Shown piece after piece: positions 783 through 8,956 of a stretch of 23,477 bases of DNA; the first letter of the stretch is position 1, and each line of letters begins with the position of its first letter. Below the pieces are notes generated by a model. The model searched no databases. It was given only the letters and a program-made list of their open reading frames with translations, and had not been told where the DNA came from. Position numbers and translations under genes: made by a program. Source of the stretch: a virus; IMG/VR virus record IMGVR_UViG_3300025128_000343, positions 1 through 23,477 of that record; one strand, written 5' to 3'.

Positions 783-1012
783 AAACTTAGCTTATGCATA
801 CCTTGTATAGGAAAAGCCTCGAAAGGTAAACAATACCCTGTTGTCTTTAAATTCTCTTTATATTCCAAGGGTTTAGACTCGTAAATGTTTAAATAAGTTG
901 TCAGTGCTTGCATGCATTCTTCCTCGTTAGGATACAAAAAAGAATTGTTCTTTACTGAGGGCATACCAGGCATTGAGATTAATAAATATAGTAACCAAAT
1001 TTTAACTGTCAT
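779..1012 (-). CDS. Small secreted or membrane-anchored hypothetical protein
   Basis: This 77-residue protein begins with a hydrophobic N-terminus (KIWLLYLLISMPGMPS) that reads as a signal peptide or signal anchor. Two cysteines (33 and 61) remain in the exported part and could pair. It overlaps both neighbours by four bases at start and stop, so it is clearly embedded in a minus-strand operon. I do not recognise a family. The position between two other genes, one with a signal peptide, suggests a shared extracytoplasmic function. A spanin-type lysis protein was considered, but no lipobox or coiled coil is visible. Confidence 0.7.
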   Translation of the reverse strand: MTVKIWLLYLLISMPGMPSVKNNSFLYPNEEECMQALTTYLNIYESKPLEYKENLKTTGYCLPFEAFPIQGMHKLSL

Positions 1013-1650
1013 TCTTGTTGTTTTAAATCATAAAAATAGTTTGTGTCATCACCAGCTGTCCATTTACTTTTGTTTTCAACGGAGTAATATTTACTTGACA
1101 CTTTAAAATCAGGTTGCAATGTTTTAGCAGGCGTTAAGGATTTGTCGTAGAATATAACTCTATTATTAGGTTGGGCAGCGTAATGCCCATTATCTAATTC
1201 TATTATATTAAACGATTTGTGCTCCTCTGGGACCTCTGAGTAATTTACGTTAAGGATGTTTGTATCCGCATGGCAACTATCAATCGTAAATAAGTATTCA
1301 CCATAGTACCATTTCTTTGATGGTGCAAGATATTTACAACGTGTTCCAGCAAGCGAGGATTTTTCTACAATAGTTATGTGGTAGCTAAATGCATCCCACA
1401 GTTCTAATTCTTCTAGTTCAAGACTATCTTTAATATCAGGGGAATTAACAAAAGCACTAATAGGGAGCTTATCATATAGAGCACCATATTCCGGCAGATA
1501 CGTTTCAAAGTAGAGCGCTCTGCCTTGGATAGACTTACAAGTAACCCAAACACCTTCTACAAATTCTCCATGACCCTTTTGATGATCATATAGATATTCT
1601 TTTTTTATATATACTTTTGTTGGTGGTAGATTTGCTACTAGAAATGACAT
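1009..1650 (-). CDS. Conserved-looking hypothetical phage protein, first gene of the minus operon
   Basis: Unrecognised 213-residue soluble protein without a signal peptide or membrane segment. It is rich in aromatic residues (for example KWYYGEYLF near the middle and NYFYDLKQQE at the end) and has alternating beta-strand-like stretches, consistent with an all-beta fold. The start is preceded on the minus strand by GAGGGG about five bases away, a good ribosome site. Downstream genes are coupled by four-base overlaps. Its partners look exported, so it may act with them, or it may be a virion protein; neither can be decided here. Confidence 0.75.
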   Translation of the reverse strand: MSFLVANLPPTKVYIKKEYLYDHQKGHGEFVEGVWVTCKSIQGRALYFETYLPEYGALYDKLPISAFVNSPDIKDSLELEELELWDAFSYHITIVEKSSLAGTRCKYLAPSKKWYYGEYLFTIDSCHADTNILNVNYSEVPEEHKSFNIIELDNGHYAAQPNNRVIFYDKSLTPAKTLQPDFKVSSKYYSVENKSKWTAGDDTNYFYDLKQQE

Positions 1651-3240: not shown

Positions 3241-3616
3241 TTTATGGTTAGATAAGAAGGTTATAGAGAAGGTTATTAAGCAATTTGAAAATGATGAGGA
3301 AGTACAGGAGTATATTAAGAACAATTTTGATACTACCCCAGACCCAGAATATCCATCATTAGATCCTACACGTGGTTATGTTAGACCTAAAGCATCCAAG
3401 TATATTATTACGTGGGCCAAGGTACACACATATGTAAGGAAGAAAGCACCAAATAGGATTGAGTTAACTGAAGACGAAAAAGAGATACAAAAGACTCTTG
3501 AGGCATCTATTACTAAAGAAGCTATTGATGAGTGGGGTCAAAATGAAATGTTAAGAGAAGTAAGCAAAGAATATTGGAGTCACCCAGATGCAAAAGGCCT
3601 TGAAGAAAAAAGATAA
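3221..3616 (+). CDS. Hypothetical protein, lysine/glutamate-rich
   Basis: Unrecognised 131-residue soluble protein. It overlaps the preceding gene by 20 bases and the next by 29, and its ATG follows GGTGGG. The first part is helical (KKVIEKVIKQFENDEEVQEY), the middle contains a proline-rich turn (TTPDPEYPSLDPTRGYV), and the rest is basic and acidic helix. No enzymatic motif is visible. Its position just before a LexA-like gene and the terminase suggests an early or middle gene with a regulatory or DNA-associated role. Confidence 0.65.
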   Translation: MQTYEINLWLDKKVIEKVIKQFENDEEVQEYIKNNFDTTPDPEYPSLDPTRGYVRPKASKYIITWAKVHTYVRKKAPNRIELTEDEKEIQKTLEASITKEAIDEWGQNEMLREVSKEYWSHPDAKGLEEKR

Positions 3617-3824
3617 AGAAGGGTTAACACCCAAACAAAAGAAGTTTTATGATGTGATAAAAGACTTCGTAAAAGCTAATGGGTATGCTCCATCGTATGA
3701 AGAAATGAAACAATTGAATAATATGAATTCAAAGAGTCAAGTTCATGGATATGTGCACAGGCTTATAGCTCGTGGTTGGCTTAAAAATGGGAATGGCAGA
3801 AATCGGTCAATTTCTATTGTATGA
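3588..3824 (+). CDS. Stand-alone LexA-type winged-helix DNA-binding protein
   Basis: The 78-residue protein aligns by eye with the N-terminal DNA-binding domain of LexA: LTPKQKKFYDVIKDFVKANG, then YAPSYEEM, SKSQVHGYVHRLIARGWL and a final RSISIV. In LexA this domain recognises operator DNA, and a serine protease domain follows. Here the chain stops after the winged helix, so it has no self-cleavage domain and should not respond to RecA. GGAG lies about eight bases upstream of the ATG. The gene sits directly upstream of the repeated GTGACAC sites in front of the terminase genes, so it is a natural candidate to bind them. The fold is fairly sure; the target is inferred. Confidence 0.8.
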   Translation: MQKALKKKDKEGLTPKQKKFYDVIKDFVKANGYAPSYEEMKQLNNMNSKSQVHGYVHRLIARGWLKNGNGRNRSISIV

Positions 3825-3885
3825 GTCACATGTATAGTGTATATTTTGCTCAAAAGTTTTTTTTATTTTTAAATACCGGGATATT

Positions 3886-3957
3886 GGTGACACAGTGACA
3901 CATTTGGTCAATTATCTATATAATTCAATTAGTTATGTTGTGTCACCTATGTGTCAC
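3886..3957 (+). promoter_or_regulatory. Terminase promoter flanked by repeated GTGACAC sites
   Basis: A perfect -10 box TATAAT (3919-3924) lies 18 bases after GTGACA (3895-3900), a five-of-six -35 match. GTGACAC occurs at 3887-3893 and 3895-3901, and its reverse complement GTGTCAC at 3940-3946 and 3951-3957, so paired sites flank the -10 box in opposite orientations. A fifth copy lies inside the downstream gene at 4072-4078. This looks like a multi-site operator able to loop or occlude the promoter. Alternatively the repeats could be recognised by the small terminase subunit at packaging. Confidence 0.65.
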
Positions 3958-4037
3958 TACTCTAAACAACGCAAGGCACTTTTTTGTTTTTTAAGAACTA
4001 AAATGAGTAAAAACTTAACTATACAGCGGGTTAGCGG

Positions 4038-4649
4038 ATGGTAGATAAAAGATTGGTTGCCGACACAAGTGGTGACACAAAAGATATGTCTCTTAAACAC
4101 CCTAAAGGAAGAGATGGGTTGACTGATAGGCAGAGGATATTTGTTAAAATTTATACTGATAATGAAGGTAGGTTGACTCCAACAGAATGTGCAAGACAAG
4201 CAGGTTACAAAGAAGAGAGAGCAGCTATCACTGCATCAGAACTATTAAATGGAAAACAACATCCAAAAGTAGTAGAAGCTGTTTTGGCAAGACGTGCGGA
4301 ACTAGAAAAAACACATGAAGTTAAATTAAGTAAGCATGTACAAGAATTGGCTAGACTTCGTGATCGTTCTCTTTCAGAGAAGTCTTATAGTGCTGCTGTT
4401 AATGCTGAGCGGTTGCGTGGACAAGCTGCAGGATTGTACATCGATAGAAAAGAAATCAGAACAGGTTCAATTGACAGTATGTCTAGAGAAGAAGTTTTAG
4501 CTAAGTTAAAGGAAATAGGATTAGATGGAAAATTTAAAAAAGAAGGTAATCAAACTATTATTCAAGTCGAAGAGGAATCCAATAGCGAAGGACTTAAAGA
4601 CATCACCCCAGTACAAACAAAAGATAGTAAAAAACAGAAAAAAGTATGA
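4038..4649 (+). CDS. terS: Terminase small subunit
   Basis: The small terminase subunit recognises phage DNA and feeds it to the large subunit for packaging. The 203-residue product has the expected helix-turn-helix near residues 30-80: LTDRQRIFVKIYTDN, TPTECARQAGYK, ITASELLNGKQHPKVVEAV. This pattern is that of the Terminase_2 family. A helical central part (residues 85-140) would form the oligomerisation core, and the tail is charged and lysine-rich. The start follows the repeated GTGACAC promoter region. It overlaps the nuclease gene by four bases. The large subunit is not adjacent but 2.8 kb away, with the repeat-rich segment between. Confidence 0.8.
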   Translation: MVDKRLVADTSGDTKDMSLKHPKGRDGLTDRQRIFVKIYTDNEGRLTPTECARQAGYKEERAAITASELLNGKQHPKVVEAVLARRAELEKTHEVKLSKHVQELARLRDRSLSEKSYSAAVNAERLRGQAAGLYIDRKEIRTGSIDSMSREEVLAKLKEIGLDGKFKKEGNQTIIQVEEESNSEGLKDITPVQTKDSKKQKKV

Positions 4650-5053
4650 CCGTAAAAGGGGAGACAAATTTTTGGAAGACTTTAAAGACATCATTAGAAG
4701 GTGGTGAATATATTGTTTCACGCCTTGAATCATACGTTACGCCAGGATTCCCGGATTGCCTTATTTATAACAAGGTTACAGGTTTCTTTACAATTGAATT
4801 AAAGGTTATTAATAGTAATAATAAGGTAACCGTTTCACCCTTCCAAATCGCATGGAATATGCGTCATAGTTTAGCAGGAGCAAAGTCATATATCTTGGTT
4901 GGGGGGCTTCCCAACCACCATGTTAAATTGTTTCATGGGTGCAAAACCAAGGAACTAGGCCAAAGCACCGTGGACCAAGTACCTGGGCTCTATGAAGGGA
5001 GGCTCGTGGACCTTGACCTAAGCAAAATCGTGTCAAACTCCGAAACTCCCTAA
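4646..5053 (+). CDS. PD-(D/E)XK nuclease (VRR-NUC-like)
   Basis: A 135-residue protein with the pattern of small phage PD-(D/E)XK nucleases: GFPD at residues 34-37, ELK at 51-53, and a conserved glutamine downstream (SPFQIAW, Q67). A glutamate near residue 28 may complete the metal site. Such proteins cut DNA with magnesium and in phages may resolve branched DNA or assist terminase during packaging. The start overlaps the small terminase stop (ATGA), supporting joint expression and a packaging-related role. The 3' end is odd: its last codons already contain two AAACTCC repeats of the following spacer. A GG-rich hairpin with eight-base arms lies in the coding DNA at 4896-4917. Confidence 0.8.
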   Translation: MTVKGETNFWKTLKTSLEGGEYIVSRLESYVTPGFPDCLIYNKVTGFFTIELKVINSNNKVTVSPFQIAWNMRHSLAGAKSYILVGGLPNHHVKLFHGCKTKELGQSTVDQVPGLYEGRLVDLDLSKIVSNSETP

Positions 5054-5434
5054 TAATAATTTCTTGTGGACAAGCTGTGGATAAGTCGCAGCTACGCACC
5101 GGGCGCGCCCGCTGCCCAAACTCCCCAAACTCCCCTTAGTTTTTCCCAGTTTTCTGCGGATTCGTTTCACGCATCTCTGCAGCCCGGGCCAGGAAGCAGC
5201 GTAGCTTCAGTCCTGAAACTCCCAAACTCCCCAATGTTTCTCCCGTTTTTTTGTGGATCCTATCCTGCATCCCCAGCTGCCGGGCGCGCCGGGAGTTCTG
5301 TGGTTCATACCATTCAGGTAATGGTCGAAGTTCCGTGAAGCTCGGAAAGTTATCCACAACTAATTTGCGTGGGTGGTTGCATGTGATGTCATTAGGTGTT
5401 ATATTATAGTTAGAAATATAACAAAGGAGTTAAT
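5054..5434. other. Gene-less spacer with repeats and GC-rich palindromes
   Basis: No gene is supported here. In order the spacer has TGTGGACAA (5065-5073, one base off a DnaA box), TGTGGATAA (5076-5084), the palindrome CGGGCGCGCCCG (5100-5111), two AAACTCCCC, GTTTTCTGC (5149-5157), GCCCGGGC (5182-5189), two more AAACTCC, CCGGGCGCGCCGGG (5280-5293), TTATCCACA (5350-5358) and the promoter of the next gene. The last GC-rich 14-mer recurs exactly at 5837-5850. Open frames through it on both strands are low-complexity consequences of the GC-rich repeats. Confidence 0.65.
5377..5422 (+). promoter_or_regulatory. Promoter with inverted repeat over the -10 box
   Basis: TTGCAT (5377-5382) and TATATT (5400-5405) are 17 bases apart. 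GTTATATT at 5398-5405 pairs with AATATAAC at 5415-5422, an eight-base inverted repeat covering the -10 box and the likely start site. The ribosome site AAAGGAG follows at 5424-5429. This is a good self-contained promoter for the gene at 5435, probably under repressor control. Confidence 0.6.
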
Positions 5435-5659
5435 ATGGTTTTACCAGAAGATAGTAGCAATCCAATAGTGGAAGTGCTCAAAGAAATAGCTGAGTCTTTA
5501 GATAAGAACACAGATATACTAAATAGAATATGTAATCATTATGATTCGGTTGTTCCTGTAATGAAGAAGAATCAAGAAGTGGTCGCATTAGCAAACGAAG
5601 ATAACCGAAGTACACTCGATAAGATGTATGACGGAATCTTCAGTACTAACGAGAGTTAG
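5435..5659 (+). CDS. Small acidic helical hypothetical protein
   Basis: This 74-residue protein has its own promoter and a strong ribosome site (AAAGGAG, five bases before ATG). The sequence is acidic and helical (NPIVEVLKEIAESLDKN, then TDILNRICNHYDSVVPVM), suggesting a short coiled coil or a small protein-binding adaptor. I do not recognise a family. It stands alone between two copies of the repeat-rich spacer, like the other small genes here. A host-interaction role is only a guess from size and context. Confidence 0.65.
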   Translation: MVLPEDSSNPIVEVLKEIAESLDKNTDILNRICNHYDSVVPVMKKNQEVVALANEDNRSTLDKMYDGIFSTNES

Positions 5660-5987
5660 GCACATTTAGGGGGGGTTGTCAAACTCCCAAACTCCCCCTA
5701 ACAAATTAACTGTGGATAACCTGTGGATAAGTCCCGCTGGGGCACCGGGCCCGCAGCGTACAAACTCCCTGAAACTCCCAAACTCCCCAATAATAAATCC
5801 AGGTTTTCTGCCGTTTTTTCCAAGCTGGTTTGTACACCGGGCGCGCCGGGGAACTAACGGAGGTGGGTAAAAATTTTGTGGCTGTTTTCTGCCATTTTAT
5901 TTAGCCCGGGTCTTGACTTCAGGCTGGTGCTGCGTTATATAACCAGGAGCTGCAGGAGCTGCAGCGTTAGAATTAGAAAGGAATACA
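5660..5987. other. Second repeat-rich spacer
   Basis: No gene is supported. In order: two AAACTCC, two tandem TGTGGATAA boxes, the palindrome CGGGCCCG (5746-5753), three AAACTCC, GTTTTCTGC (5803-5811), the 14-mer CCGGGCGCGCCGGG (5837-5850, identical to 5280-5293), a second GTTTTCTGC inside a 13-mer (5880-5892) that also occurs at 1893-1905, and GCCCGGGT (5904-5911). Then come the next promoter and two tandem AGGAGCTGC units (5945-5962) at the likely start of transcription. The order of parts closely parallels 5034-5434. Confidence 0.65.
5913..5941 (+). promoter_or_regulatory. Sigma70-type promoter
   Basis: TTGACT (5913-5918) and TATATA (5936-5941) are separated by exactly 17 bases, a close match to the bacterial consensus. 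It lies at the end of a repeat spacer and 47 bases before the ATG of the tiny membrane protein gene. Confidence 0.65.
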
Positions 5988-6077
5988 ATGTTTGATTTTA
6001 TAATAGGAATAATTTTGCCACTGAAATGGATCTTCCTGGCAGTGCTGGTATACTACATAATTACGAAGCTCGCTTAA
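5988..6077 (+). CDS. Tiny single-pass membrane protein (29 residues)
   Basis: Short but well supported: a promoter with a 17-base spacer upstream and AAAGGA about five bases before ATG. The product (MFDFIIGIILPL, then WIFLAVLVYYIITKLA) is one hydrophobic helix, with lysine near the C-terminus. Its TAA stop is the beginning of the AAACTCC cluster at 6076. Small phage membrane peptides of this kind can disturb host membranes or inhibit a host membrane protein, but nothing here proves such a role. No family recognised. Confidence 0.6.
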   Translation: MFDFIIGIILPLKWIFLAVLVYYIITKLA

Positions 6078-6107
6078 ACTCCCAAACTCCATTAATATTT
6101 ATCCACA
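6076..6107 (+). repeat. 32-base direct repeat, copy 1
   Basis: These 32 bases recur exactly at 6452-6483. The unit consists of AAACTCC, C, AAACTCC, an ATTAATAT stretch and the DnaA box TTATCCACA. The two copies enclose the promoter and gene at 6159-6383 in a 376-base period, as a cassette between direct repeats would. Confidence 0.8.
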
Positions 6108-6120
6108 GGTTTCTGGTCCA

Positions 6121-6150
6121 TGCGACATGTTGTCGCCCGGCCCGGGCGCG
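6121..6150. repeat. GCGACA inverted repeat joined to a GC-rich palindrome
   Basis: GCGACA (6122-6127) and TGTCGC (6131-6136) form arms around a three-base loop and run into GCCCGGCCCGGGCGCG (6135-6150). The same arrangement, with the same loop size, is found at 7322-7338, where the arms are seven bases. It is likely a protein-binding site or a DNA hairpin shared by the two spacers. Confidence 0.5.
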
Positions 6151-6158
6151 GTAGCGAG

Positions 6159-6187
6159 TTGACACGAATTACATTTCGTGTTATGCA
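6159..6187 (+). promoter_or_regulatory. Promoter with perfect inverted repeat in the spacer
   Basis: A consensus -35 TTGACA (6159-6164) is followed after 17 bases by TATGCA (6182-6187), a weak -10. ACACGAA (6162-6168) and TTCGTGT (6175-6181) form a perfect seven-base inverted repeat spanning the end of the -35 box and the spacer. As at 1924-1937, a palindrome sits in the spacer, which suggests repressor control. The downstream gene starts at 6213. Confidence 0.55.
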
Positions 6188-6212
6188 GAAGATAGAAAGA
6201 GAAAGGATTACT

Positions 6213-6383
6213 ATGATTCGTTGGAACAAATGGACTAGAGATTATACATATACTTATGAATGGCATGATGGGGCTTGGCGACTTATCCACAAGAAAAGTA
6301 ATAGACCTGTTGTACATTGGGTGAAGTCATGGTATACTAAACCTAGTTATTTAACAGAGTGTGGTCAGCAACTAAGACGCTAA
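6213..6383 (+). CDS. Small basic aromatic protein
   Basis: ATG at 6213 was chosen because AAAGGA lies about six bases upstream and a promoter lies at 6159. An in-frame reading from 6120 would translate the GC-rich repeat and is rejected. The 56-residue product is very rich in tryptophan and tyrosine (MIRWNKWTRDYTYTYEWHDG, then AWRLIHKK; VVHWVKSWYTKPSYL) and basic. This suggests a compact beta-hairpin protein that binds nucleic acid or another protein. A DnaA-box match at 6283 lies inside the gene. The gene is bracketed by the 32-base direct repeat. No family recognised. Confidence 0.65.
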   Translation: MIRWNKWTRDYTYTYEWHDGAWRLIHKKSNRPVVHWVKSWYTKPSYLTECGQQLRR

Positions 6384-6451
6384 CAGTAGATACAAGCACT
6401 CGAAGAGGCATGGTAGTTATATCTGTAAGTCCTCAAACTCCTAAACTCCCC

Positions 6452-6483
6452 AAACTCCCAAACTCCATTAATATTTATCCACA
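6452..6483 (+). repeat. 32-base direct repeat, copy 2
   Basis: Exact copy of 6076-6107. It is preceded by two extra AAACTCC units (6434 and 6443) and followed by a near DnaA box (6486-6494) and the GC-rich stretch CCGGGCCGCCCGGGC (6499-6513). Confidence 0.8.
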
Positions 6484-6543
6484 AGATATCCACAGGCACC
6501 GGGCCGCCCGGGCACGCAGGTGCTGATGCTGAAGTTCGGACAT

Positions 6544-6569
6544 AAAAAAAGGGGATATAAAATCCCCTT
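6544..6569 (-). terminator. Rho-independent terminator for the minus-strand gene pair
   Basis: AAGGGGAT (6549-6556) and ATCCCCTT (6562-6569) form a perfect eight-base stem with a five-base loop. On the minus strand the stem is followed by a T-run (A-run 6544-6550 on the plus strand). It lies 28 bases after the stop of the gene ending at 6597, as expected for its terminator. Confidence 0.85.
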
Positions 6570-6596
6570 GATAAGATTGAGTATAGTGAATTGAGG

Positions 6597-6884
6597 CTAA
6601 CTCAATCCTAACCTTTTTAAGATATAACCTATATCTGATTGCATGTGCTGTATTAAATCCATTGAATTAACATCTCTGTCTTTATTCATTGATGCCCATT
6701 CAACTACTGAATTACACAATACACCAGAAATAAGTTTCCAGTCTGGACTATCTTTTGCAGGAAGGGTGCAGTTCTGAAAGTCTGCTAATTCTCCTGTTGC
6801 GTCTTTGTCTTTGACTAACTCCACTAAGCTCTCGATTAGTGGGGTTATGTTTACATTGTTCTTAGTAATTAAATCATTTGGCAT
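6597..6884 (-). CDS. Hypothetical protein, second gene of a minus-strand pair
   Basis: Unrecognised 95-residue acidic protein with helical stretches (ITPLIESLVELVKDKDATG; LIQHMQSDIGYILKRLGLS). It shares a TAATG junction with the upstream gene, so the two are translationally coupled, and it is followed by a clear terminator. The pair is transcribed against all surrounding genes and forms a self-contained unit between the two terminase subunit genes, which is typical of an accessory insertion. No catalytic residues are evident. Confidence 0.65.
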   Translation of the reverse strand: MPNDLITKNNVNITPLIESLVELVKDKDATGELADFQNCTLPAKDSPDWKLISGVLCNSVVEWASMNKDRDVNSMDLIQHMQSDIGYILKRLGLS

Positions 6885-7153
6885 TATACTGTCCTTCCAT
6901 TTATTTCTAATATAGTTTCTGGGTTAATGTTAGCCCAACGTCTATGATTAGGGTTTAAGCCATTACCTACACGATAGGCTAAGACATAATTAGGTAGTTC
7001 GTTAATACTATCTCTAGTACCAAGTTCAGTATTACGCCAAGCATGAGTACCTAAGATACCTCTTTTAATCTTAGATATATCACCCTTATTGTTTATCCAT
7101 TTGCAAGAGAAGAAACCATTTCCTACTATTGCTTTGAAGTCTTGTTTAGTCAT
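6884..7153 (-). CDS. Small putative SH3-like beta-barrel protein
   Basis: The 89-residue product has the pattern FFSCKWINNKGDISKIKRG, then ILGTHAWRNTELGTRDSINE and a final LEINGRTV. This resembles small phage proteins annotated as SH3 beta-barrel fold, in which a basic RKxxGRLG-like turn is followed by strands and a terminal NG turn. Such proteins are of unknown function and may bind nucleic acid. On the minus strand TGAGGT precedes the ATG by about five bases, and an AT-rich stretch with a TATAAT-type box lies near 7205-7215. The fold is a resemblance, not an alignment. Confidence 0.6.
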   Translation of the reverse strand: MTKQDFKAIVGNGFFSCKWINNKGDISKIKRGILGTHAWRNTELGTRDSINELPNYVLAYRVGNGLNPNHRRWANINPETILEINGRTV

Positions 7154-7495
7154 GTTTACCTCAATTCTATTTCTATCTATTGTGTATCATAGCTTACTAA
7201 TTAATTATATAGCTAATTAAATTAGTTGTGGATAAGTCGGCACTATATGTAGTGGTGCGACAAAATGCCGCGGCCCGGGATGTAGTATGCTCGGCGCACT
7301 ATTACCTACTAGATCTAGCGGTGCGACACAATGTCGCAGGCGGCGCCCGGGAACTCCACACGGACCTACCAAATCTGCGAGGGGGCGCCCCCCCCTTTAT
7401 AGCTAAAGCATGCTTTTATTTTTTAAGGGTAAGATTGAGGGTGACAATGATCACCAAAAACGTTATATATCGAAGTTCGAAAAAATTTTTAAAAA
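7154..7495. other. Repeat-rich spacer before the large terminase
   Basis: The left part carries the promoter of the minus-strand pair and a TGTGGATAA box (7227-7235). Then come two copies of a roughly 30-35 base element at 7250-7280 and 7316-7353, and the palindrome GGGGGCGCCCCC (7381-7392). A short frame at 7447-7569 (ATG after GAGG, 40 residues) overlaps the start of the large terminase gene and has a better ribosome site than terminase itself; I consider it unproven. A long open frame from 7228 crosses the GC-rich repeats and is not credible. Confidence 0.6.
7250..7353 (+). repeat. Imperfect direct repeat with TGCGACA inverted repeat
   Basis: Copy 1 (7250-7280) and copy 2 (7316-7353) both run TAG, GGTGCGACA, AATG, CGC and then a CCCGGGA end. 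In copy 2 TGCGACA (7322-7328) and TGTCGCA (7332-7338) are perfect inverted arms with a three-base loop; copy 1 has lost one base of symmetry. A third related element is at 6121-6150. The repeats sit just upstream of the large terminase gene. Confidence 0.6.
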
Positions 7496-8956
7496 ATGGA
7501 AAATGTTTCGCAACTAGAAAAGCTAGATACTCAAACCCTCAAATATCTTTTAAAGAATGCGGTTGTTGAAAAACAAGAAGAAACGCAGTCAGATTTTTTA
7601 AAATTTGTAAAAACAGTTTGGCCTGAATTTGTTGAGGGAAAGCATCATAAAATTTACGCGGAAAAATTAAACCGCATTGCCAATGGTGAGCTCAAACGCC
7701 TTATTGTAAATATGCCTCCAAGACACACTAAATCAGAATTTGCGTCGCATTTATTTCCGGCGTTTTTTATGGGAAGGCATCCTAAATCTAAACTAATACA
7801 AACTACACACACTGGTGAACTAGCAATTCGATTTGGACGTAAAGCAAAAAATTTGATAGAGTCAGATGAATATGAATCCGTCTTTCCCGAAGTTACTTTG
7901 GCTGCAGATTCAAAAGCTGCAGGACGTTGGGAATCTAATCATAAAGGTGAGTATTTTGCTGCTGGTGTGGGTGGTGCTATTACTGGTCGTGGTGCCGATT
8001 TGCTTATTATTGACGATCCGCATTCCGAGCAAGATGCTTTATCTCCTTCTGTTCTTGATGGTCATTACGAGTGGTATACTTCTGGTCCACGTCAACGTTT
8101 ACAACCTGGCGGCGCGATTGTTTTAGTCATGACCCGTTGGTCCATTAAGGATCTAACAGGACGCTTGCTCCAAGCACAAAGTAAAGACCCAGCTGCTGAC
8201 CAATGGGAAGTAGTCGAGTTTCCAGCAGTTATTAATGATAAACCTATGTGGGGCAATTTCTGGTCCATGGACGGTCTGAATTCTGTTAAAGCATCAATTC
8301 CCATTACCAAATGGAATGCACAGTGGATGCAGAATCCCGTGGCCGAGGAGGGTGCACTTATAAAACGTGAGTGGTGGAAAGAATGGGAACCAGAAAAAAT
8401 ACCAGAGTTACAGTATATTATACAATCGTATGATACAGCTTTTACCAAAAAAGAAACAGCCGATTATTCAGCAATTACGACGTGGGGTATATTTACTCCA
8501 GAAGATGGGGGTAGACAGAACATTATCCTTTTAGACGCCAAGAAAGGACGGTGGAACTTTCCTGAGTTAAAAGAGAAAGCACAAGAAGAATATAAGTATT
8601 GGGAACCAGAGGTTGTATTGGTCGAGGCCAAAGCGTCCGGGTTACCACTTACACATGAATTACAAAAGGTTGGCATACCTGTAATTAACTTTACACCGTC
8701 AAAAGGAAATGATAAACATGCAAGAGTGAACAGCGTAGCACCGCTGTTTGAATCAGGGGCAGTATGGGCTCCTAAAGATAGACGTTGGGCCGAAGAAGTC
8801 ATTGAAGAATGCGCAGCATTCCCATTTGGCGATTATGATGATTACGTGGATAGCATGACGCAGGCATTAATGCGCTACCGTCAAGGTTATTACGTAGAAC
8901 TAAAGGACGATTTTGCGGATGAACCAACAGATAAACGAAGACAAGAATACTATTGA
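7496..8956 (+). CDS. terL: Terminase large subunit (ATPase-nuclease)
   Basis: The large terminase drives DNA into the prohead using ATP and cuts the concatemer. The 486-residue product has an ATPase domain with a Walker A variant MPPRHTKS (residues 73-80), Walker B LLIIDD (169-174) and a coupling-motif-like LVMTRW (about 210-215). An RNase H-like nuclease domain follows, with acidic residues in SYDTAF (D313), VLVEAKASG (E377) and DDYVDS (D449/D452). Length is normal for the family. No good ribosome site precedes the ATG; the region is A/T homopolymeric. It starts the long structural operon, and the next gene overlaps its end. Confidence 0.93.
   Translation: MENVSQLEKLDTQTLKYLLKNAVVEKQEETQSDFLKFVKTVWPEFVEGKHHKIYAEKLNRIANGELKRLIVNMPPRHTKSEFASHLFPAFFMGRHPKSKLIQTTHTGELAIRFGRKAKNLIESDEYESVFPEVTLAADSKAAGRWESNHKGEYFAAGVGGAITGRGADLLIIDDPHSEQDALSPSVLDGHYEWYTSGPRQRLQPGGAIVLVMTRWSIKDLTGRLLQAQSKDPAADQWEVVEFPAVINDKPMWGNFWSMDGLNSVKASIPITKWNAQWMQNPVAEEGALIKREWWKEWEPEKIPELQYIIQSYDTAFTKKETADYSAITTWGIFTPEDGGRQNIILLDAKKGRWNFPELKEKAQEEYKYWEPEVVLVEAKASGLPLTHELQKVGIPVINFTPSKGNDKHARVNSVAPLFESGAVWAPKDRRWAEEVIEECAAFPFGDYDDYVDSMTQALMRYRQGYYVELKDDFADEPTDKRRQEYY

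Follow-up and report, generated by a model that had tools for sequence, protein, structure and literature searches.

What is a compact array of short repeats, interleaved with small genes, doing between the two terminase genes of a group of marine phages? The question is raised by IMGVR_UViG_3300025128_000343, a virus fragment of 23.5 kb from IMG/VR (23,477 nucleotides; hereafter the window, meaning the whole stretch analysed), whose large terminase subunit (TerL) shares 64% protein identity with that of the Pelagibacter phage HTVC027P. Downstream of the gene for the small terminase subunit (terS) and its neighbour nuc, units built of AAACTCC heptads, an AT-rich stretch and a GC-rich part recur among the small genes A to E. 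We favour, with a probability of about 40%, the view that this array serves as a conserved early-gene control locus between the terS-nuc operon and terL. The features concerned are, from left to right:

3588-3824, + strand: LexA DNA-binding-domain protein upstream of terS (PF01726, 7e-12); candidate heptad or operator binder
4038-4649, + strand: terS, Terminase_2 family (Pfam PF03592, 7e-07; phrog_51)
4646-5053, + strand: nuc (phrog_2165, 'DNA helicase', 1e-12), nuclease-like by eye
5035-5115, + strand: Unit 1; heptads at 5035 and 5043, DnaA box 5076-5084, GC palindrome 5099-5112
5118-5193, + strand: Unit 2; heptads at 5118 and 5127, palindrome 5182-5190
5216-5293, + strand: Unit 3; heptads at 5216 and 5224, palindrome 5279-5293
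5350-5405, + strand: promoter region of A; DnaA box 5350-5358, -35 TTGCAT 5377-5382, -10 TATATT 5400-5405, 17 bp between -35 and -10 as read from the sequence
5435-5659, + strand: gene A, 74 amino acids, conserved core HYD(G/S)VVPVM; present in most loci
5681-5754, + strand: Unit 4; heptads at 5681 and 5689, tandem DnaA boxes at 5711 and 5722 (11 bp apart), GC run 5745-5754
5762-5851, + strand: Unit 5; three heptads at 5762, 5772 and 5780, palindrome 5837-5851
5988-6077, + strand: gene B, hydrophobic peptide of 29 amino acids with an (I/L)PLK motif; homologues in many loci
6076-6151, + strand: Unit 6; heptads at 6076 and 6084 overlapping the B stop, DnaA box 6099-6107, operator-like palindrome 6122-6136, GC run 6134-6151
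6213-6383, + strand: gene C, 56 amino acids (MIRWNKWT...); in a subset of relatives
6435-6513, + strand: Unit 7; four heptads 6435-6466, DnaA box 6475-6483, GC run 6499-6513
6541-6569, - strand: intrinsic terminator of the D/E operon (AAGGGGATTTTATATCCCCTTTTTTT)
6597-6884, - strand: gene D, 95 amino acids, helical; predicted fold of low confidence
6884-7153, - strand: gene E, 89 amino acids, predicted small beta barrel (predicted local distance difference test score, pLDDT, 86), with no significant fold match
7204-7235, - strand: promoter of E; DnaA box (TTATCCACA) overlapping the -35, TCCACA, 17 bp, then TATAAT
7257-7351, strand unassigned: operator-like and GC palindromes upstream of terL; GCGACA N3 TGCCGC at 7257, GCGACA N3 TGTCGC at 7323
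7496-8956, + strand: terL (phrog_38, 5e-104)

The locus stands apart from the rest of the window. Between 5034 and 7495 there are 17 AAACTCC heptads, all 17 on the + strand, where 500 shuffles gave a mean of 0.18 and a maximum of 2, and the same stretch holds 10 adjacent heptad pairs (0 in shuffles), 8 DnaA boxes (0.02) and 10 G/C runs of at least nine (1.08). The remaining 21 kb contain no heptad and no pair, one DnaA box and one GC-only run. A preliminary description of this DNA had proposed that the spacers reuse the same parts in a similar order, and this is borne out for 5034-5434, 5660-5987 and 6384-6540, with counts far above the shuffles: one or more AAACTCC pairs are followed by an AT-rich stretch with or without TTATCCACA and then by a GC palindrome. 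The third spacer also has these parts; the end assigned to it had been 6160, and it extends over 6076-6212. The small proteins between the spacers are mutually unrelated, as had been noted, and the first heptad pair sits in the 3' end of nuc.

Relatives were collected by a AAACTCCCAAACTCC scan and through relatives of TerL, which yielded at least 107 distinct array-bearing loci of the clade, all marine viral fragments. The window is one of these 107 and several others are close kin, so that the counts do not represent independent events; many loci are partial, and all counts of relative loci and clusters are lower bounds. At least 464 heptad clusters lie on the strand of terS and none on the opposite strand. 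When the interval between terS and terL (191 kb) was compared with the remainder of the records (508 kb), AAACTCC on the + strand occurred 1102 times inside and 39 times outside, DnaA boxes 440 and 18 times, tandem DnaA pairs 11 bp apart 82 and 0 times, and GC-only runs of at least 10 occurred 483 and 8 times. Twelve records of greater length, up to 30 kb, each have heptad pairs in one region only; every record is possibly a fragment, and the confinement holds for the sequenced portion. One contig carrying gene D and the array, L328, was binned with a planctomycete metagenome-assembled genome (TMED10). A planctomycete host was considered and set aside, this probably viral contig being the sole match of the genome scan and giving no host evidence.

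The typical unit of about 90 bp comprises a heptad pair, an AT-rich stretch (with DnaA boxes at some positions) and a GC palindrome at +60, and successive units mostly follow 80-110 bp apart. Of 541 heptad intervals, 361 are of 8 bp and 86 of 9 bp. The 7-mer at +8 is an exact heptad 347 times, carries one mismatch 31 times and two mismatches 7 times; judged from this exactness, the heptad is probably a strict recognition sequence. G+C content reaches its maximum, 92%, 61 nt past the last heptad, and the palindromes average 8.6 bp against 5.5 bp in shuffled units. There are 3-10 units, which flank each small gene. The heptads are often found where a gene ends: the A stop codon lies within 10 nt of them in 42 of 71 A genes, and they are frequent at the nuc stop and at many B stops too. 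Units at the same position in different genomes have a similarity of 0.650, against 0.628 for different positions within one genome. DnaA boxes occur in 71% of the units directly after A and in 43% of first units, and in none directly before A or B. The units are specialised by position and are not interchangeable copies.

The spacers had also been said to carry promoters. The window by itself yields 6 sigma-70-like matches, no excess over shuffles (6.4), but the A promoter is upheld by comparison, since TTGNNT-[DnaA box]-TATAAT recurs upstream of A in relatives, typically as TTGCAT-TGTGGATAA-N8-TATAAT. Of the 73 cases of A, 67 are preceded by a DnaA box, in 37 of them between -35 and -10; E has one upstream in 37 of 52 cases and B in 0 of 57, calls of B and C being based on short similarity. 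These promoter boxes are the strongest functional clue, and they point either to the host initiator as a regulator or to a nearby origin.

Heptads of other sequence occur in related lineages. A sister set, collected by a CTCCATTCTCCATTG scan, has CTCCATT heptads in at least 40 loci and at least 96 clusters, all on one strand (0 opposite). These heptads are 7 bp apart and the units mostly 80-110 bp, each unit containing an AT-rich and then a GC-rich stretch, in the layout of the AAACTCC units; nuc adjoins terS in both heptad lineages. In the cultured phage HTVC027P, GCTTGNN repeats start at the end of nuc, an unannotated gene beside terS with the heptad repeats directly after it (L086, 1617-1892). 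Still other short repeats occupy the equivalent place in more distant relatives. Such lineage-specific heptads suggest a co-evolving binder. Among the more distant relatives, L059 (79-1139) and L031 (137-1032) have units some 70-100 nt long in the terS-terL interval that bear terminal inverted repeats (CTTGACCCC...GGGCTCAAG and GGATCAGGGATCAG...CTGATCCCAGATCC). Two HTVC027P genes inside the interval, gp33 and gp34, form a separate temporal class with a peak at 6-9 h; the profile of gp30, which adjoins terS just beyond the interval, is unusual too (PMC12753301). A relationship of gp34 to A was considered and dropped, the similarity being weak and short.

In the control locus that we propose, each unit of about 90 bp would be a putative protein-binding cis-element. 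A lineage-specific phage protein would bind the heptads, frequently found at the preceding gene's stop codon, and the bound heptads would form a block or insulator, such that A, B and C would be driven by their own promoters without read-through from terS-nuc. Host DnaA would bind inside or beside the A and E promoters and at the tandem sites in the unit after A; early expression would then track free DnaA and shift as the multiplying phage copies titrate it. Protein binding, transcription block, early timing and the response to DnaA are steps that we infer. This reading is placed first because the units punctuate genes in strict orientation, often at stops and next to promoters that bear DnaA boxes, and because heptads are retained in the sister lineage without DnaA boxes. 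The D/E operon, on the opposite strand, ends in an ordinary terminator instead of heptads.

Several observations weigh against transcription control. Tandem units without an intervening gene are superfluous for simple insulation, no heptads follow D in genomes that have E and D on the + strand, and the RNA folding of the units is not unusual relative to shuffles (z -1.3 to +0.9). Only 0-1 DnaA box was found in the terL-upstream stretches scanned in the CTCCATT lineage, and without a comparable set there the design cannot have DnaA at its core. The candidate readers of the heptads also raise difficulties. The LexA-domain protein, a stand-alone domain, is found only in the AAACTCC lineage, where 75 of 77 loci have it ahead of terS, against 0 of 42 loci of other lineages; it was not retained as the reader, as it co-occurs with the heptads yet is missing from fragments of L161 and L205 that keep them. 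Ribbon-helix-helix operators (the omega heptads of pSM19035, the met boxes) are contiguous direct repeats of 7-8 bp, and the array heptads resemble them as direct repeats 7-8 bp apart. However, no ribbon-helix-helix protein (PF01402) was found in 10 records, possibly all fragments, and this candidate was provisionally set aside.

A replication origin, an alternative already raised in the preliminary description, ranks second, after transcription control, and we regard it as possible but doubtful. The heptads would be iteron-like or one-strand primase sites, the tandem DnaA boxes would recruit DnaA, the AT-rich stretch would open, the GC palindromes would aid helicase or primase loading, and early genes would lie among the origin units. 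In P1 oriR and RK2 oriV, direct repeats, DnaA boxes and AT-rich and GC-rich parts occur together, and the array combines the same elements: its DnaA boxes are almost confined to the locus, beside AT-rich DNA and short direct repeats, and the tandem pairs lie exclusively inside the interval. Relatives have their own PolA, helicases and archaeo-eukaryotic primase (AEP); L207 encodes an AEP-type primase (PF22548; 7505-8998) and also PolA. The AEP primase-polymerase NrS-1 starts at a specific short sequence of one template strand, 5'-TTTGGTTA (PMC8718748), and site-specific priming of this type would account for both the strict orientation and the lineage-specific heptads. On the other hand, the heptads are 7-8 bp apart and not about two helical turns (~21 bp) as in classic iteron origins, up to 10 clusters are scattered over 1-2 kb between genes, strand composition does not switch consistently at the locus, and the sister lineage lacks the DnaA boxes.

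It is unlikely that the array is a packaging start, at which the small terminase would bind the heptads just downstream of terS and cut near the GC palindromes. The first heptads do come after terS-nuc in both heptad lineages and after nuc in HTVC027P, and heptads and TerS diverge together, TerS of the other lineage being ~38-46% identical to that of the window; this co-divergence is non-specific, since all proteins diverge between lineages. Moreover, one site suffices for packaging, yet 3-10 units occur, flanking each small gene, and the DnaA boxes of the promoters have no packaging role.

Slightly less probable still is that the spacers exist for gene swapping, like the promoter early stem-loop (PeSL) elements of T4-type phages; the preliminary description had suggested a cassette-like system. 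Comparison of the terS-terL segment in relatives agrees with this proposal only in part: A is decoupled and C variable, but the order is fixed and the spacers are position-specific. Across 47 complete loci, nuc is followed by A, B, C, D/E and terL in that order. Any of A, B and C is absent from some of them (C from many), a membrane peptide lies between D and E in some, and about one-third have an inverted D/E block, sometimes with two extra genes inserted. A is duplicated together with its spacer in L174, whose two A alleles differ from each other. Identities correlate between terS and nuc (0.76) and between terS and the LexA-like gene (0.58), against 0.05 for terS and A, 0.15 for nuc and A and 0.11 for A and D; in L152 and L195, A is 99% identical and nuc 57%. 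The C block of L106 is 92.8% identical to that of the window, and the Blast alignment leading in from the left 78%, the block having its edges just past the Unit 6 palindrome and at the Unit 7 heptads. Blast comparison of close pairs revealed exchanged blocks, some with spacers as bounds. In L111, L133 and L152, a gene C that seemed to lie ahead of A proved to be a false match, with only a leader DNA segment in common.

Interior genes are therefore swapped, lost, duplicated and inverted, with some breakpoints in spacers, as a cassette-like system would have it. Free shuffling as the main account is ruled out by the fixed order and the position-specific units, and no recombinase was seen in the window, a 23.5-kb fragment, as had been remarked. 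A small upstream gene without such spacers shows a similar identity correlation with terS (0.16), so that ordinary phage mosaicism may suffice. Gene swapping between spacers is real, the spacers being only its possible cause, and it looks like a by-product. A better description would be a fixed, specialised control array holding early genes, across which genes sometimes swap. PeSL spacers, reportedly described by Arbiol in 2010 and Comeau in 2014, are said to combine a likely stop with a promoter and to coincide with swapping. The array shares with them spacers between small genes, and its gene swapping, not above the mosaicism elsewhere in the genome, may be a further likeness. It differs in that its units lack a stem-loop terminator with a T-run, have heptads and DnaA boxes in addition and are position-specific, within a fixed gene order.

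Other observations concern single elements of these genomes. The palindrome GCGACANNNTGTCGC, at 7257-7337 and 6122-6136 in the window, recurs in relatives, usually 150-240 bp upstream of terL, and is present in L076, which has no AAACTCC heptads. A phrog_3704 gene (213 amino acids) has moved, as it lies far left of terS in the window (1009-1650, - strand) and directly before terL in a subset of relatives (L179, 4520-5158, + strand, in the orientation of terL). L207 also encodes, by eye, a DNA cytosine methyltransferase-like protein (3321-4307).

Two further candidates were set aside: an RNA element or terminator is contradicted by the ordinary folding and the lack of any Rfam match for the units up to E = 1 (a terminator scan found no strong terminator at the unit palindromes), and an integron attC array by the lack of a visible recombinase and by heptads that are direct repeats with short palindromes standing apart, attC cores not having been separately scanned.

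How does a control locus of this kind compare with known systems? Stoperators of Cluster A mycobacteriophages are short asymmetric repressor sites that block elongation, lie mainly in one orientation and have a sequence specific to each phage group, which tracks its binder (PMC6550527). The heptads are likewise asymmetric, in one orientation to transcription (at least 464:0 and at least 96:0 in the two lineages) and lineage-specific. However, stoperators are single 13-bp sites across a temperate genome, whereas here paired 7-bp sites are gathered in one locus, as parts of a composite unit that also has DnaA boxes and palindromes, and the LexA-domain protein is a candidate binder only. The start-associated sequences and extended start-associated sequences (SAS/ESAS) of Cluster K mycobacteriophages are well conserved intergenic repeats, mostly in one orientation and some beside an inverted repeat (PMC3203893); they lie directly upstream of start codons genome-wide, whereas the heptads are often at stop codons and in one locus. 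Iteron/DnaA plasmid origins, for their part, are not known to have many units interleaved with genes.

We found no description of the array in the open-access papers searched, which is weak evidence of novelty. The word 'intergenic' is absent from a survey of HTVC023P-type genomes (PMC9599517), and the published HTVC027P transcriptome mentions only early genes of unknown function (PMC12753301). No GenBank phage matched the spacers or gene D. Tentatively, and with less confidence than we place in the control function itself, a repeated unit confined to one strand, whose reader would be a fast-diverging phage factor, combined with host DnaA sites, may constitute a new type of control locus in an ocean-wide clade, in which DnaA would directly set early expression and the start of replication.

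HTVC027P-related marine phages are abundant, and the way they take over their host is largely obscure. The locus marks out a set of small genes, A to E, with a control design common to them throughout the clade, and it points to host DnaA as a testable part of that design. Finally, the contrast between a fixed architecture and lineage-specific heptads offers a route to the phage protein that would read them.

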